Source: Thermoproteota archaeon (lineage in GTDB: Archaea; Korarchaeota; JAOZGF01; JAOZFZ01). Taken from it: DNA of 25,982 nucleotides. This document shows positions 18,437-25,780 of this stretch, one piece after another (within the stretch, counting starts at the first letter, position 1; the number at the start of each line of letters is the position of its first letter). The notes under the pieces were generated by a model. That model did not search any database and was not told the origin of the DNA. It saw only the letters and a list, made by a program, of their open reading frames with translations. The stretch is taken from NCBI GenBank assembly GCA_027492035.1, contig JAOZFT010000037.1, positions 1 to 25,982 on the forward strand. The letters run 5' to 3'. A program made the translations under genes and the position numbers.

Positions 18437-19144
18437 TTAAATGGCTAGGTATGCTTTTCTCACTTTTTCGCTTTTAAGTAAGTCCTTCCCCCTTCCTTCA
18501 AGTGTTATTTTACCGTTTTCAAGTATGTAGCCTCTGTCAGCTATTTCTAAACCTTTTGCAACGTTTTGTTCAACCAGTAAAATAGTTGTCCCTCTTTCTT
18601 TAAGGTTTTTTATTGCTTCGAAAACTTCTTCAACCAGTACAGGTGCTAAGCCGAGGGAGGGTTCATCAAGCATTAACAGGGATGGTTTAGACATTAAGCT
18701 TCTGGCTATGGCAAGCATTTGAGCTTCACCGCCGCTCAATGTCCTTGCAACTTGTTTCTTTCTTTCTTCTAGTCTAGGGAAGAGTTCAAACACTTCTTTT
18801 AAGGTTTCAAACCTTTGTTCTCTGGCTCTTTGGTTATATGCCCCCATTAAAAGATTTTCTGTAACTGTTAAGTTGGGAAATAAACGTCTACCTTCCGGAA
18901 CCAGAGAAATTCCTCTTTTAGATATTTCATGGGAAGGGAGGTTGGTGATTTCTTCGTTTTTAAAAAATATTTTTCCAGATTTAGGTTTCAAAACACCGGA
19001 TATGGTTAGTAGGGTTGTGGTTTTACCTGCTCCATTGGAGCCTATGATTGTCACCATTTCCCTTTCTTCAACTTTAAAGGATACGTCCCAAAGTACTTGA
19101 ACCATTCCGTAATAAACGTTGAGGTTACTTACTTCCAGAAACAA
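18437..19144 (-). CDS. livF: Branched-chain-type amino acid ABC transporter ATP-binding protein LivF
   Basis: Second ATPase of a LivFGHMK-type importer, acting at the inner face of the membrane. Walker A GSNGAGKTT is at residues 35-43, the intact signature LSGGE at 136-140, and Walker B LLMLDE ending at Asp160/Glu161. YYGMVQVL and VPEGRRLFPNLTV are typical of LivF. The TTG at 19144 gives 235 residues, the usual LivF size, with a GGAGGT Shine-Dalgarno overlapping the livG stop; an in-frame TTG or ATG-like extension to 19198 would overlap livG by 47 bases and is unlikely. Last gene of the livKHMGF operon. Substrate cannot be told from the ATPase. Confidence 0.93.
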   Translation of the reverse strand: MFLEVSNLNVYYGMVQVLWDVSFKVEEREMVTIIGSNGAGKTTTLLTISGVLKPKSGKIFFKNEEITNLPSHEISKRGISLVPEGRRLFPNLTVTENLLMGAYNQRAREQRFETLKEVFELFPRLEERKKQVARTLSGGEAQMLAIARSLMSKPSLLMLDEPSLGLAPVLVEEVFEAIKNLKERGTTILLVEQNVAKGLEIADRGYILENGKITLEGRGKDLLKSEKVRKAYLAI

Positions 19145-19151
19145 TTCCTTT

Positions 19152-19874
19152 TTACCTCCTTCCAAGATATGCTTCAATAACTTTTTCGTTGGAAGCAACT
19201 TCTTCAGGTTTTCCTTCAGCTATTTTTTCACCATAATGTAAAACAACTATGTAGTCTGAGATCCCCATTATGAAATGCATCACATGTTCAACCAGGCACA
19301 AAGTAATTTTCTTTTCTTCATTAACTTTACGAAGTAAAGCAATTAAGTTATCGATTTCTGTAGGAGTTAAACCGGCAGCTAATTCGTCTAACAGCAAAAG
19401 TTCAGGTTTAGCAGCTAAGGCTTGAGCTAAGGTGGTTAGCTTCATTTCCACAAGGTTAAGGTCTTTACATAAACGTTTCCTTAACTTAGATAAGCCTAAG
19501 AAATTAAGGGTTTCACTAATTATTTCTTCAACTTCTACCTCGTTTAGAGCATGGTTGTAGGCACCAACCCTTACTGCTTCTTCCACTGTTAATCCAAGGA
19601 AAGGCTTCACCACCTGAAAAGTTCTCCCTATACCTAGTTTAGCTATTTTGTGAGGAGGCTTTCCCGTTATTTCTTCATCTCTAAAATAAACTTTCCCTTC
19701 TTCTGGTTCATAAAAGCCGGTTATGACATTGAACAATGTTGTTTTACCTGCTCCGTTGGGACCTATTAAACCTAAAATTTGTCCTTTGCTTATCTCCATG
19801 TTTACTTTGTTTAAAGCCACTAAGCCTGCAAACTTCTTAGTGACATTCTCAACTTTTAATAGAGTGTTATTCAT
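19152..19874 (-). CDS. livG: Branched-chain-type amino acid ABC transporter ATP-binding protein LivG
   Basis: First ATPase of the importer. Walker A GPNGAGKTT is at residues 38-46, and GIGRTFQVVKPF provides the Q-loop. The signature position reads LNLVE (139-143) instead of LSxGQ, followed by MKLTTLAQALAAKP, and Walker B is LLLLDEL (159-165) with Leu for the usual Pro. Divergent LivG signatures of this type exist, and the partner LivF keeps a canonical LSGGE, so the dimer may hydrolyse ATP asymmetrically. Length 240 is normal. The ATG overlaps the livM stop by 4 bases behind GGAGG. Operon member between livM and livF. Confidence 0.92.
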   Translation of the reverse strand: MNNTLLKVENVTKKFAGLVALNKVNMEISKGQILGLIGPNGAGKTTLFNVITGFYEPEEGKVYFRDEEITGKPPHKIAKLGIGRTFQVVKPFLGLTVEEAVRVGAYNHALNEVEVEEIISETLNFLGLSKLRKRLCKDLNLVEMKLTTLAQALAAKPELLLLDELAAGLTPTEIDNLIALLRKVNEEKKITLCLVEHVMHFIMGISDYIVVLHYGEKIAEGKPEEVASNEKVIEAYLGRR

Positions 19875-20878
19875 TTTTTTTCCTCCTTTTTCAAGGAAAA
19901 TAACCCAATTTTTGCGTAGACTTTGTTAAGTATGGCTGAAAGACCTTCAGGGAAGAAAAGAACAATAATCATTAAAATTGCTCCATAAAAAATTAAGTGT
20001 ATACCTGGAATCCACCCTCCTAAAACTGTTCTTAGGTACTCTGAAGCTGACTGCAAAATAAAGGTGGTGATAACAGGTGAATAAATCGACCCTAAGCCTC
20101 CAACTATTCCTAAAATAGCTATTTGTAAACTTATGTCAGTGTTGAACTGTGTAGGGTGGATGTAACCTGAAATCAAAGCAAAAAATGAACCTATAGTTCC
20201 TGTAATGAAGGCATAAATCATTAAACCCTTTAATTTAGTCATTCTTACATCTACACCAAGCATTTCGGCAGCATCTTCGTTCTCTCTTACAGAAAACAAA
20301 TAGTACCCGAGTTTACTCATTTTAACTTTAACATTTAAAAAGAGGACAATTGCTAAAGCAACCACTAAAATGTAGTAATAGTAGGAGTAGGGTAGTTTTA
20401 AGTAGTAAAGGGAACCATAGGTTCCTGGTAAATACCTTTCTTCAGGGCCTCCAACTTGTTCCCATACAGTGAAAAACTGCTTCAAAACAACCACTAAAGC
20501 TATTGTTGCTAAAGCGTACCAGACATCCTTCAAGCCAAACCTAAATGAGGGGTAACCAATAATGAAACCAAAAGCTGCAGCAATTAACCCTCCCGCAAAA
20601 ACACCTATTACTGGAGGAATGTTCCACCTTAGAAGTAAAGTTCCCATTGTGAAACAGCCTAAACCTGTAAATGCACCTGCTCCAAGATCAAGTTGGCCAC
20701 CGAACCCACCAATAATGTTCCAGGCACTCACAATTACCGCGTAAAGAAGAATATAAGTTAACACTAGAAGAAAGTAATTGTTGAATTGAAGAATGGGGGG
20801 AATTAAAGCTAAACCAACTGAAATTATAACTATAGACCGTAACTGCTTATATATTTCTCTTTTCATTGAAGATTTCAT
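19871..20878 (-). CDS. livM: Branched-chain-type amino acid ABC transporter permease LivM
   Basis: Integral membrane permease of 335 residues with about eight to ten hydrophobic segments. LivM hallmarks are the AWNIIGGFGGQLDLGAGAFT segment near residue 52, FRFGLKDVWYALATIALVVV, and the cytoplasmic coupling loop FSVRENEDAAEMLGVDVRMT that contacts the ATPases. The N-terminus is short and basic (KSSMKREIYKQLR). ATG start with AGAGGTAA 6 bases upstream, the Shine-Dalgarno overlapping the livH stop. Pairs with LivH to form the channel. Confidence 0.93.
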   Translation of the reverse strand: MKSSMKREIYKQLRSIVIISVGLALIPPILQFNNYFLLVLTYILLYAVIVSAWNIIGGFGGQLDLGAGAFTGLGCFTMGTLLLRWNIPPVIGVFAGGLIAAAFGFIIGYPSFRFGLKDVWYALATIALVVVLKQFFTVWEQVGGPEERYLPGTYGSLYYLKLPYSYYYYILVVALAIVLFLNVKVKMSKLGYYLFSVRENEDAAEMLGVDVRMTKLKGLMIYAFITGTIGSFFALISGYIHPTQFNTDISLQIAILGIVGGLGSIYSPVITTFILQSASEYLRTVLGGWIPGIHLIFYGAILMIIVLFFPEGLSAILNKVYAKIGLFSLKKEEKK

Positions 20879-20884
20879 TGGAAA

Positions 20885-21751
20885 TTACCTCTTTCCGAAA
20901 AGTCCTTTGGGTTTAAACCAAAGGAGCAGTATAAACAAAAGGTATACTATAGCTAAACTTGCTCTAGGGTCCCAGAAAGTTATTTCAATGCCTTGAGCGA
21001 TTCCAACAATTAAACCTGCAGCTAATACACCTGACAAACCTCCAAGACCACCCATGGCCACTATAACCCAACTTAAAAGCCCCCACGTCATACCTGACAT
21101 AGGCTCAACCTGTTGAAAAGTCATAATGAAACTGGCTGCTATAGCTATAATTGCACAACCTAAACCGAAAACTAAGGTATACATTTTTTTAACATTTACA
21201 CCTAACAAAGCTGCAGCAACTTTGTCATCGCTTGTAGCCCTTATAGCAATTCCGAAATAAGTCTTGGTTAAAATTAAATGTAAAACAATAAGCACAACTA
21301 AACTTACAATAGCTGTAGCTAACCTGGAAATTGAAATAACATAGTCTCCTACTTTAAACCCTCCCACGAGAACTTGGTACTGTAAACCTTTGGGTTCAGC
21401 ATGCCAGGCAGCTAAAGCAAAGTTACGGAGCAAAATAAGCAAACCTATGGTCACAGCTATTTGTGAAAGAGGTTGAGCCTCAATCACTTTATCTATAACT
21501 AACTTGTAAATAATAATTCCGAAAACAAAGAAGATAGGCGCCGTCAAAACAACAGTTGCAGAACCAGGAATAGCTAAAAACAAACTTATCCAGAAAGTTA
21601 GATACATAGCTACCATAACAAATTCTCCATGGCCAAAATTTATTATATCCATTACGCCAAACTGTAAAGCTAAACCTAAAGCCACTAACGAATAAACAAA
21701 CCCTAAAAGTGTACCATTTATCAAGTTTTGAATAAATAATTCTAAAGACAC
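20885..21751 (-). CDS. livH: Branched-chain-type amino acid ABC transporter permease LivH
   Basis: Integral membrane permease with about eight hydrophobic segments. Family hallmarks are LINGTLLGFVYSLVALGLAL at the N-terminus, DIINFGHGEFVMVAMYLT, and the coupling loop GIAIRATSDDKVAAALLGVN. I choose the GTG at 21751 (288 residues): GGTGG lies 6 bases upstream and LivH proteins normally start just before xLFIQxLING. A TTG at 21781 would add ten residues but has no properly spaced ribosome site. It follows livK after a 107-base gap that contains oligo-T runs, so expression may be lower than that of the binding protein. Confidence 0.92.
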   Translation of the reverse strand: MSLELFIQNLINGTLLGFVYSLVALGLALQFGVMDIINFGHGEFVMVAMYLTFWISLFLAIPGSATVVLTAPIFFVFGIIIYKLVIDKVIEAQPLSQIAVTIGLLILLRNFALAAWHAEPKGLQYQVLVGGFKVGDYVISISRLATAIVSLVVLIVLHLILTKTYFGIAIRATSDDKVAAALLGVNVKKMYTLVFGLGCAIIAIAASFIMTFQQVEPMSGMTWGLLSWVIVAMGGLGGLSGVLAAGLIVGIAQGIEITFWDPRASLAIVYLLFILLLWFKPKGLFGKR

Positions 21752-21831
21752 GGAAAGCCACCGTTTCAAAGGAAATTTCAAATTTTAAATCTGAAAAACC
21801 TCAAAGGAAAACTGCAAACTCAAAATGGCAC

Positions 21832-21858: not shown

Positions 21859-23181
21859 TTACTTAGATGGCATTGGGAATATTGGCTTAGTTGTTCTAAG
21901 TGCACGAGGCCAAACAAGTACAGGTTGGCCATTTTGCACCTGCAAAACCACAGCTTCAGCAAATTCATTGTCCCCGTGTGCATCGAACCTTATGTGCTGC
22001 GAAGGATAAAGTTCAGCAGCTGGACCACTTGTTATGTCGAGGGACAGGAATGCCTGTTTCAACACGTCAGGATTTAATGGATCTGAAGGGTTTATTTCTC
22101 CTGCTTTCTCAAGTGCTTCCTTAACCGTCCATAGAGAGTAAGCTATGATCCCACCTGCTTCTGTAGGCATTTTACCGTATCTCTTCTTGAATTCATTAAC
22201 AAACCATTTATTGTAAGGAGTGTTCAGCATAGGGTTGTAACTGTATGTTTGGGTGAATCCTTCAACGGCAGCCCCTGCAGCTTCTATTGAGCCAGGGTCA
22301 CAGTAGCCACATGCCCCTGAACCTGCAACAAGTAAGGGATGCCAACCCATTTCCCTCATTGTTTTAGCAATTAACACTCCATCATCGAAGTACGGAACAG
22401 AAACCACCACTTGAGGATTTTCAGATTTCAATTTACTAACTATGGGTGAAGCGTCTGAAATGTCATAAGGGTACTCAATATGATCTAGAACAGTTACTCC
22501 GTAAGTGTAGGCTTGATGTATAGCTCCTTCAGAAGTGTATTTCCCGAAAACTGAATCTTCATTTATAACTGAAATGTTTTTGAGTTCTACACCGTTTTCT
22601 TTAGCTGTTTCATAAGCAAACTCCATCGCTGTTTTTCCGTGAGCTGAGGATTTAGGACAAACCCTGAAAAAGTATTTGTAACCCTTCTCTGTCAAAAAGT
22701 CAACTAATGCATCACCTACAAGTATTACTTTCTCTCTCTCTGTAACTTCAGCCATAGCGGCTGTGTGCCTACTTATGTAGGCTCCAAGTATCACCACAGG
22801 GTGCTCACTTGAAATAAGTTGTTCAGCTGCTAATTTAGCCCCTTCATTGTCACTTTTAGTGTCTCCAACAACCAATTTTATTTTAGCTCCTCCAAGAGAT
22901 TTTATTCCCCCTTTAGCGTTGATGTCTTCAACAATTAATTCAGCAGCCTGCTTAGCTTCTGTACCGAACACTGCATGGGTACCTGTTAAAGGCTCTATCA
23001 AACCAATCTTGACTTCCTTTATTGCTGGTACTGTAGGGCTTGGTGAAGCTGTTGCAGTAGGTGAAGGTGTCGGTGTTGGACTTGGAGGCTGACCTACACA
23101 ACCAACTAAAAGAAATAAAGAAACTAGAAAAGTCACTGACAATATTTTAAATTTTTTGTCGAATCCCGTCTTAAAATTCAT
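21859..23181 (-). CDS. livK: ABC transporter substrate-binding lipoprotein, LivK family
   Basis: Extracellular type I periplasmic-binding fold protein (Peripla_BP_6) that captures the solute. An ATG at 23181 (440 residues) is chosen over an upstream in-frame start because AGGTGAT at 23189-23195 is spaced 7 bases from it. The N-terminus is basic, then has a hydrophobic stretch (residues 11-27) and a lipobox LVGC with Cys28. A Pro/Thr/Ser-rich linker (about 30-52) typical of archaeal surface lipoproteins follows. The binding domain starts KVGLIEPLTG-like and contains GGIKSLGGAKIKLVVGDTKS. The usual branched-chain ligand motif with paired Ser/Thr is not clear (GAYISRHTAAM), so the substrate may not be Leu/Ile/Val. 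First gene of livKHMGF, next to a methyltransferase operon. Confidence 0.9.
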   Translation of the reverse strand: MNFKTGFDKKFKILSVTFLVSLFLLVGCVGQPPSPTPTPSPTATASPSPTVPAIKEVKIGLIEPLTGTHAVFGTEAKQAAELIVEDINAKGGIKSLGGAKIKLVVGDTKSDNEGAKLAAEQLISSEHPVVILGAYISRHTAAMAEVTEREKVILVGDALVDFLTEKGYKYFFRVCPKSSAHGKTAMEFAYETAKENGVELKNISVINEDSVFGKYTSEGAIHQAYTYGVTVLDHIEYPYDISDASPIVSKLKSENPQVVVSVPYFDDGVLIAKTMREMGWHPLLVAGSGACGYCDPGSIEAAGAAVEGFTQTYSYNPMLNTPYNKWFVNEFKKRYGKMPTEAGGIIAYSLWTVKEALEKAGEINPSDPLNPDVLKQAFLSLDITSGPAAELYPSQHIRFDAHGDNEFAEAVVLQVQNGQPVLVWPRALRTTKPIFPMPSK

Positions 23182-23237
23182 TGATGTAATCACCTTTCTT
23201 CTGCACAGATTATTACTTATCTCCAAAAATAAACTGC

Positions 23238-23669: not shown

Positions 23670-25052
23670 TCAGTAAAGGAATGGGAAACCTAAATCCATT
23701 AATTCGCTCTTTATTTTATTGTAGAGTTCTGTGTACTCTTTTGATGGCTTTACTTTTTTCACATCGTAACATTCTTGGAATGTTTTCCCTAGAGGTGGGT
23801 TGTACCATTTATTTTCATACTTTATAATAACTTCTTTAACTAATTCATTCACGTCGTCACGCTTTATTTGTTCCTTAGCTGCACCCCAACCAACTTCGCA
23901 GGCCATTCTAGCTTCCATTGGAGTTGTTCTGTTTTTATGTTTGTTGCAGGCAACCCCTATTTCCCAAAGATTGCCCCCTGAAACTACACTGACTAATCCG
24001 TGGACCGCTGATTCATATAACACCATGGGTGTGCAGGGGCCTGCAGCAGCAAAACCGTTAGATGTTGAAATAAAGGAGCTGTTCCTGGCTATTGCTTGAT
24101 AAGTTAAACTAACTACCCATAAAAGTTCACGGGAGGTATTTGAGTTATTTCTTATATCTATGGGGAAGTAGTTTGACCAGTGAGCTTGGTTAACCATTAA
24201 ACCCTGTAAAAAGTGAGCAATACCAACTACAGCTGTACCTTCAGGCCCGCCGCAGTATCCTCCTTTCATGGGGCCGAAAAGTGCACCTACGTAGCAGCCG
24301 TATTCATGAAAATGCACCATTTTGTTAAGGAGGGAGAAATCGGTTTTTAATTCAGCTATGGAAGCAACGAAACGGGTATCTGTCAATCTTTCACCCCATT
24401 CTTGGTTGCTGGCAGCTATTTGGGCGGTGTCACTTATTGCGGTACCAACACTTTTCAGGAATAAACCGGGTCTACCCACTCTCCTAGCTGTTTCTCTGAA
24501 CATCATGGCATGCGCTATAGCTCCTTTAACCTCGAAAGGAGTATTTGCTTCTATGGGTCTTCCTTCAATTTCTTCCAATATTGGGGCACAAACTCCATCT
24601 GCAATAGGTTCTTGTAAGTAAGCCATGGTCATAGGTACAAAAATTTCTTCGTCGCAGGTTATGTCTGGACTTAAAAGACAGAAGGGCCTCCTTTTATCCT
24701 CTACTTTTCTATGCCACATTTCACTTGAATCTTTTCCAAATCCTGTTTTTATTTTTCCAGGGTGTAAAGCTAAGGCTTCCTTTACTTCATCCTCTTCAAA
24801 CGTTATTCTTCTATTGGTGGATTTACAGAAGGTTCCAGTTTCTAAATAGAGTTCATACCCTGCCCTCCATAAGTCGTCAGCTAATGAGTTGTCGTTTGGA
24901 ACAATGTTGTCAGGGTCAAATTTTATTCCATACTCTTTAATAACCTCTCTGAGCTTAGGCCAAAGTATTCTTAGATCGAAGTCTTTCTCCCTACAAAAGG
25001 GGCCTTTCTTGGCTTTGTCAAGAACTTCATTTATCCGCCATGGAGGAACCAT
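23670..25052 (-). CDS. mtmB: MtmB-family corrinoid methyltransferase with lysine at the pyrrolysine position
   Basis: Homolog over its whole length (460 residues; methanogen MtmB about 458) of monomethylamine:corrinoid methyltransferase, which moves a methyl group from methylamine to a Co(I) corrinoid protein. Family landmarks: RPGLFLKS around 194-201, FGPMKGGYCGGPEGTAVVG, NNSNTSRELL, AAGPCTPM, PMEARMACEVGW and near the end GKTFQECYDVKKVKPSKEY. In MtmB the segment RPGxGV is followed by pyrrolysine encoded by TAG. The matching residue here is Lys200 with codon AAA at 24453-24455, and the gene has no internal TAG. The true substrate is therefore uncertain; non-pyrrolysine members of the related MttB family use other methylated compounds. 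ATG start with a GAGGGAG site, 2 bases after the corrinoid protein gene, so the two form an operon. Confidence 0.87.
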   Translation of the reverse strand: MVPPWRINEVLDKAKKGPFCREKDFDLRILWPKLREVIKEYGIKFDPDNIVPNDNSLADDLWRAGYELYLETGTFCKSTNRRITFEEDEVKEALALHPGKIKTGFGKDSSEMWHRKVEDKRRPFCLLSPDITCDEEIFVPMTMAYLQEPIADGVCAPILEEIEGRPIEANTPFEVKGAIAHAMMFRETARRVGRPGLFLKSVGTAISDTAQIAASNQEWGERLTDTRFVASIAELKTDFSLLNKMVHFHEYGCYVGALFGPMKGGYCGGPEGTAVVGIAHFLQGLMVNQAHWSNYFPIDIRNNSNTSRELLWVVSLTYQAIARNSSFISTSNGFAAAGPCTPMVLYESAVHGLVSVVSGGNLWEIGVACNKHKNRTTPMEARMACEVGWGAAKEQIKRDDVNELVKEVIIKYENKWYNPPLGKTFQECYDVKKVKPSKEYTELYNKIKSELMDLGFPFLY

Positions 25053-25054
25053 TT

Positions 25055-25723
25055 TTATTCTCCCTCATTGACAAGTTTAAGGGCTACTTTAACAGCTTTT
25101 TCAGCTGTTTCAGCCCATCCATCAGCTCCTATTTCTTCAGCCCATTCTTGAGTTGTTGAACCTCCACCTACTATTACGATAAACTTATCCCTCACTTTCA
25201 TTTCTTTCAGTAAATCTATCACCTCCTTCTGCGAACGCATTGTAGTTGTCATTAATGCTGATAAAGCTATTATGTCAGCTTTTGACTCTAAAGCAGCGTC
25301 AACAATATTTAGTGAAGATACGTCAGTTCCTAGATCTATTACTTCGAAACCGTTGACGTTTAGCAACAGTTTCACGATATTTTTACCTATGTCATGAATA
25401 TCGCCAGCCACGGTGGCTATAACAACTTTCCCCTTTTTATTAATGCTTCTTTCAATTTTACTCTCTTTTAACTTCTTCAAAAAAACTTCATTAGCTGCCT
25501 GTATAGCTTCAGCTGAAAACATTAAATCTGTTAAGAAGAAATCCCCCCTCTCAAATTTTTCCCCGACTTCTTTAGCTGTAGAAGTGACAACTGTATTAAT
25601 GGCTTCCAATGGGTCAAAACCCTCCTTAAGCAGCGAGTTTGCTATACGTTGTGCTTTTTCAGAGTCGCCTGCAATTATGCTTCTCCTTAATTCTTGAGTT
25701 AAGTCTTTCTTTAAATTAGACAC
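25055..25723 (-). CDS. Corrinoid (B12-binding) methyl-carrier protein, MtmC/MtbC/MttC type
   Basis: Carries the methyl group on cobalt between a substrate methyltransferase and a downstream acceptor enzyme. The N-terminal four-helix cap (about residues 5-85) contains GFDPLEAINTVVTSTAKEVG and FLTDLMFSAEA. The Rossmann B12 domain has DIHDIGKN with Asp108, His110 (lower cobalt ligand) and Gly113, then SALMTTTM at about 155-162 and GGGST at 186-190. I prefer the GTG at 25723 (222 residues) because AAGGTG lies 6 bases upstream; the GTG at 25732 is part of that site. First gene of the operon with the MtmB homolog. No corrinoid-reducing RamA-type activator or second methyltransferase lies in the window. 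Confidence 0.92.
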   Translation of the reverse strand: MSNLKKDLTQELRRSIIAGDSEKAQRIANSLLKEGFDPLEAINTVVTSTAKEVGEKFERGDFFLTDLMFSAEAIQAANEVFLKKLKESKIERSINKKGKVVIATVAGDIHDIGKNIVKLLLNVNGFEVIDLGTDVSSLNIVDAALESKADIIALSALMTTTMRSQKEVIDLLKEMKVRDKFIVIVGGGSTTQEWAEEIGADGWAETAEKAVKVALKLVNEGE

Positions 25724-25780
25724 TTCCCACACCTTTTTCCCAAGTTTTTACTTTTACACAAGAAAGTTTGCCTAAAAACC

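Follow-up and report, generated by a model that had tools for sequence, protein, structure and literature searches.

The monomethylamine methyltransferase MtmB carries its pyrrolysine, Pyl202, anchored to a strand of a TIM barrel (PMC9842639). Homologues of MtmB that lack pyrrolysine have long been known, and an MtmB tree of 1,061 sequences has been published (PMC13044021). The sole Pyl-free member assayed, MtqB, is a tetramethylammonium/choline methyltransferase that retains slight monomethylamine activity; docking placed a quaternary nitrogen at the position of the Pyl adduct, and Pyl-free MtmBs occur in Asgard archaea as well (PMC13044021). The Sifarchaeia MtmB was reported in 2021 to be without Pyl recoding, unlike MtbB (PMC9723677), and a Pyl-free MtmB-superfamily protein showed the highest fold change in the proteome of strain DCMF on dichloromethane (PMC9768040). 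For MtgB, Arg/His were proposed to hold the carboxylate, with aromatic residues around the ammonium (PMC6855144). A preliminary description of the locus studied here regarded a Pyl-free MtmB with its own corrinoid protein as little known, but many are known, and the feature, although real and correctly read, is not rare in its family and was over-interpreted.

The window, by which we mean the whole stretch of 25,982 nucleotides that was analysed, is one entire contig (C1) of a 1.87 Mb archaeal genome in 42 contigs that is about 93% complete. Its methyltransferase gene (Table 1) starts with ATG and contains neither an internal stop nor a TAG in frame. The product matched PF05369 with 363 bits (cut-off 25, E 2.9e-108) and covered positions 3-449 of the 450 in the profile, and its residues 10-458 aligned with M. 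barkeri MtmB1 (1l2q/1nth/1tv2; E about 1e-70 against 1tv2/1l2q) at about 30% identity, confirming the homology from end to end that had been claimed for it. The AlphaFold (AF2) model, with a mean pLDDT of 91.7, superimposed on 1l2q with a TM score of 0.94-0.95 and an rmsd of 1.5 A, and thus has the MtmB TIM-barrel fold. The Pyl-free MttB superfamily (MtgB and relatives, COG5598), which likewise joins a Pyl-free barrel to a corrinoid protein, is in contrast another protein family, with a Foldseek TM of only about 0.5. No RNA elements or tRNAs were found when these were sought in the window.

Table 1. Positions of the methyltransferase gene, its pocket codons and the neighbouring genes in the window.
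Feature	Position	Strand	Evidence
MtmB-superfamily (PF05369) methyltransferase gene without pyrrolysine, 460 aa	23670..25052	-	Pfam, MtmB1 structure match, AF2 model
Cognate corrinoid protein gene, 225 aa, DIHDIG cobalamin-binding motif	25055..25732	-	Pfam B12-binding_2 and B12-binding
Lys200 codon AAA, opposite Pyl202 of M. barkeri MtmB1	24453..24455	-	Alignment, residue survey, codon check
Phe228 codon, opposite Glu229 of MtmB1 (Glu in 18/18 Pyl-MtmBs)	24369..24371	-	Alignment, survey
Leu258 codon, opposite Glu259 of MtmB1 (Glu in 18/18 Pyl-MtmBs)	24279..24281	-	Alignment, survey
Asn332-Gly-Phe334 codons, opposite Gln333 and Tyr335 of MtmB1 (Gln, Tyr in 18/18 Pyl-MtmBs)	24051..24059	-	Alignment, survey
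LIV-type substrate-binding protein gene, downstream of methyltransferase	21859..23226	-	Peripla_BP_6
LIV-type ABC transporter, two permeases and two ATPases	18437..21781	-	BPD_transp_2 x2, ABC_tran x2

The stretch RPGLFLK200 aligned without gaps with RPGMGV-Pyl202 of MtmB1, placing Lys200 at the Pyl position as had been proposed. Misalignment was ruled out by this gap-free alignment, and sequencing error by the closest homologue, an 86% identical orthologue that has the same Lys and likewise a corrinoid gene beside it. We surveyed 110 distinct homologues (18 Pyl-MtmBs and 92 Pyl-free) at five pocket columns, namely residues 200, 228, 258, 332 and 334 of the window protein and 202, 229, 259, 333 and 335 of MtmB1. 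The combination Pyl-E-E-Q-Y was present in all 18 Pyl-MtmBs and in none of the 92 Pyl-free homologues; in the window protein it is K-F-L-N-F, such that E229, E259, Q333 and Y335 of MtmB1 are replaced by F228, L258, N332 and F334. On the basis of the MtmB structure work of Hao et al. 2002 and of their conservation, we take these four MtmB1 residues to be handlers of the Pyl-ammonium adduct; a search of the open literature for Pyl-pocket residues by number found no confirming paper. In the AF2 model strands 254-259 and 328-334 have Leu258 and Phe334 at their ends, Lys200 likewise ends a strand, and Phe228 is inside strand 226-230, a predicted placement that is consistent with one common pocket within the barrel. 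With the partners of Pyl replaced in this way, the methyl donor is probably a new one, as the preliminary description had suggested, and monomethylamine is probably not the substrate.

We collected homologues from the genome itself, from about 690 other archaeal genomes and from a named genome collection. The 86% identical orthologue comes from a MAG that falls in the same family and was deposited as Thermoproteota archaeon Flange_M5_B4; the next homologues, 64-69% identical, come from Sifarchaeum, Borrarchaeum, Heimdall- and Hodarchaeota, a Hadesarchaea MAG and Bathyarchaeota MAGs. At the Pyl column the 110 homologues have K (15), Q (2) or, in the rest, M, V, I, L, N, G, T, H, C, F, Y or Pyl. 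The 17 members of the K/Q set, 15 of them with Lys, keep the signature K/Q-F-L-(N/A/G)-(F/Y) over about 65% identity, including K-F-L-A-Y in four Heimdall/Hodarchaeota members and Q-F-L-N-F and Q-F-L-G-F in the two Gln members. These relatives share the site and the pocket signature with the window protein but differ from it in their neighbouring genes, and an adjacent corrinoid gene is not found in all of them. Judged from these alignments, K or Q at the Pyl site appears to mark a subfamily of Asgard archaea, Bathyarchaeota, Hadesarchaea and the window lineage; in the open literature searched, the five-column signature and this subfamily with its distribution are new.

In the tree the Pyl-MtmBs formed one clade, and the Lys members formed two well-supported groups, one being the window pair (100/100) and the other Asgard sequences with one Bathyarchaeota MAG (13 rows, 100/99). 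When the pocket columns were masked, both Lys groups fell together with the two Gln members and with a Val branch from bacteria in one group (support 89/95); a first, smaller tree had grouped K and Q alone (SH-aLRT 95). Two more PF05369 genes in the same genome are 41% and 33% identical to the window gene and have Met and Leu at the site. A paralogue in the nearest relative's genome (L106), 61% identical, has V-F-L-K-K at the five columns, with Val at the Pyl site and Lys at both 332 and 334. Its lysines would lie on another strand, as if the pocket charge had moved, a single case that fits a pocket wanting positive charge.

The corrinoid protein gene, which had also been claimed for this locus, lies 2 bp upstream of the methyltransferase gene on the same strand, and the best NCBIfam matches of its product are of the MtgC/MtbC type, below their cut-offs. 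The genome search also found one RACo gene, on contig C20, so that both a cognate corrinoid protein and a reductive activator are present; MtmB, too, has a corrinoid protein of its own. A corrinoid gene also neighbours the closest orthologue and relatives of Hodarchaeota-like, Bathyarchaeota and Hadesarchaea origin. In one relative (L053), C-type and Q-type genes are clustered with RACo and further corrinoid genes, and in another (L054) a gene for a pterin-binding methyltransferase of the methyltetrahydrofolate:corrinoid type directly follows the MtmB homologue; both clusters directly support a corrinoid pathway. The neighbourhoods of the Asgard relatives vary, some being without a transporter, aminotransferase or corrinoid gene. 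In Sifarchaeum and Borrarchaeum (L043, L048, L151 and L154) the Lys-type gene stands, with no adjacent corrinoid gene, in a conserved cluster with a class V aminotransferase, a cupin, an MR/MLE enolase, a methyltransferase, a TPP enzyme and a DtxR-like regulator.

No PylS was found above the cut-off in the genome, the best match scoring 24.7 bits against a cut-off of 178, and weak matches of this kind occurred in 13 of 14 control genomes as well. Neither methyl-CoM reductase (MCR alpha) nor a URO-D-type MtbA/MtaA was found in the genome search, setting this genome apart from the setting of Pyl-dependent MtmB. It does contain one MtrH gene, adjoining an MttB gene, three MttB-superfamily genes in all, and genes for CdhC, CdhD and CdhE (CODH/ACS), which adjoin the third MtmB homologue. 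As MtrH, RACo and CODH/ACS are present and MCR and MtbA/MtaA were not found, the methyl acceptor is most likely tetrahydromethanopterin (H4MPT).

Two other regions of the genome carry related genes. On contig C8 (about 27-61 kb; L112 and L015) the three MttB-superfamily genes, all Pyl-free, lie with MtrH, corrinoid proteins and the second MtmB homologue, whose site residue is Met. CoA transferases, thiolase-like genes, an HpaB-family enzyme and IorA/B are located there too, making this region a candidate betaine-degradation island. On contig C9 (about 77-89 kb; L016) the third MtmB homologue (Leu site) and a corrinoid gene lie beside CdhC/CdhD/CdhE and an aldehyde ferredoxin oxidoreductase, a layout that suggests a short route of the methyl group into acetyl-CoA synthase.

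We consider it likely that the gene pair of the window encodes a Pyl-independent corrinoid methyltransferase and its corrinoid protein, which act on a donor other than monomethylamine and feed the H4MPT/Wood-Ljungdahl route. The TIM-barrel enzyme would bind a methylated substrate where the Pyl-bound methylammonium sits in MtmB and would pass its methyl group to the Co(I) of the adjacent corrinoid protein. From there the methyl group would most likely go to H4MPT through the genome's single MtrH, and then enter the Wood-Ljungdahl pathway, while the cobalt of the corrinoid protein would be reduced again by RACo.

As to the substrate, the pocket chemistry and the aminotransferase-rich neighbourhoods lead us to propose, tentatively and as the leading candidate, a carboxylated N-methyl or quaternary compound (a betaine or an N-methylated amino acid). 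Its carboxylate might be held by Lys200, by extension from the MtgB proposal and the MtqB docking, and its N-methyl would face the hydrophobic/aromatic pocket of Phe228, Leu258 and Phe334. This carboxylate clamp is not strictly conserved, Lys200 being replaced by Gln in two close relatives and by Val in others. A broader and more speculative proposal is that the K/Q subfamily as a whole comprises uncharacterised corrinoid demethylases, in which Lys or Gln might anchor a betaine or N-methyl amino acid by its carboxylate and the substrate would replace the Pyl-methylammonium adduct; the demethylated amino acid would be transaminated and, in non-methanogenic archaea that include Asgard lineages, the methyl group would enter the Wood-Ljungdahl pathway.

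The aminotransferases were counted with Pfam among mid-sized neighbouring ORFs. They made up 8 of 60 in the K/Q and sister group, while the other Pyl-free MtmBs had no more than 3 among 124; the excess was seen before being tested, in related loci that are not independent, and the eight come from about five lineages. Four were of class I/II, three of class V and one of class III, the class V proteins scoring best on cysteine-desulfurase-type models, below the cut-offs of those models. Around the other Pyl-free MtmBs no aminotransferase family reached the two-member listing. An earlier version of this test (8 of 26 against 2 of 58 loci) had used profiles built from the loci themselves and was redone with Pfam to guard against bias. 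As a clue to the substrate, the excess is suggestive only. ABC transporters of amino-acid type were also seen, a LIV-type one beside the window gene, a polar amino-acid one beside its closest orthologue and others beside several of the sister genes. A gene similar to the LIV-type binding protein adjoins the Hadesarchaea relative (L045). A functional link of the LIV-type binding protein and transporter to the methyltransferase is conceivable from their position. As a substrate clue the LIV transporter was rejected as unspecific, being also common near other Pyl-free MtmBs with no enrichment (Fisher p 0.30).

Among other substrates, the quaternary amines of MtqB come into consideration, as MtqB (ACT9XH_RS04775) and its corrinoid protein MtqC (Methanococcoides methylutens Q3c, PMC13044021) resemble the window pair in that a Pyl-free MtmB homologue of the same superfamily, with a hydrophobic/aromatic pocket, adjoins a dedicated corrinoid protein, and Asgard archaea have Pyl-free MtmBs too (PMC13044021). 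However, the host of MtqB is a methanogen, whereas the window host is no methanogen by gene content, and the genome search gave no MtbA, MCR or PylS by which trimethylamine, the product expected from tetramethylammonium, could be used. Furthermore, two candidate counterparts of MtqB, the corrinoid-paired Pyl-free methanogen proteins L089 and L091, are only 29-33% identical to the window protein and branch on the Pyl-MtmB side of the tree, and their pocket reads V/I-L/T-C-Y-F rather than K-F-L-N-F. We therefore regard an MtqB-type tetramethylammonium/choline methyltransferase as unlikely.

We likewise give little credence to a methyl donor that is not an amine, such as an O-methyl, S-methyl or halomethyl compound. 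The response of the DCMF protein to dichloromethane (PMC9768040) speaks for such a donor, as do the lack of any acid among the five pocket residues and the wide variation of the pocket between subfamilies, but identity between the DCMF protein and other members of the superfamily is only about 30%, and the aminotransferases and amino-acid-type ABC transporters nearby point to nitrogen-containing compounds.

Lysine forms the backbone of pyrrolysine, and its amine is unable to serve as the electrophilic imine of Pyl. That Lys200 takes over the chemistry of Pyl in an enzyme that is still a monomethylamine methyltransferase, the other possibility raised in the preliminary description, is thus very improbable, even though Lys stands at exactly the Pyl position in most of the K/Q set and Pyl-free MtqB keeps slight monomethylamine activity (PMC13044021), as the site is K, Q or V in the closest relatives and the Glu, Glu, Gln and Tyr partners are lost.

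The preferred reading, a Pyl-independent methyltransferase with another donor, bears on how metagenomes are interpreted, as studies often take an mtmB match as monomethylamine use. Our results suggest that mtmB matches in archaea like the window host should not be so taken, and that Pyl-E-E-Q-Y as against anything else separates true MtmB from its Pyl-free homologues at sight. The family points to an unassigned metabolism of methyl compounds in Asgard archaea, Bathyarchaeota, Hadesarchaea and related archaea, and its natural pocket variants on one scaffold could serve to ask whether an older enzyme without Pyl acquired pyrrolysine or a Pyl enzyme lost it.

Two further observations were made in the course of this work. 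Heimdall- and Sifarchaeia-type genomes contain another Pyl-free MtmB subfamily, with His at the site and the signature H-L-V-E-I (L144, L146, L147, L148, L152 and L153). In the window itself, a RuBisCO large-subunit gene is located at 1241-2542, and the contig carries, not far from it, genes for a ribose-5-phosphate isomerase and for a protein with a phosphoribosyltransferase domain.
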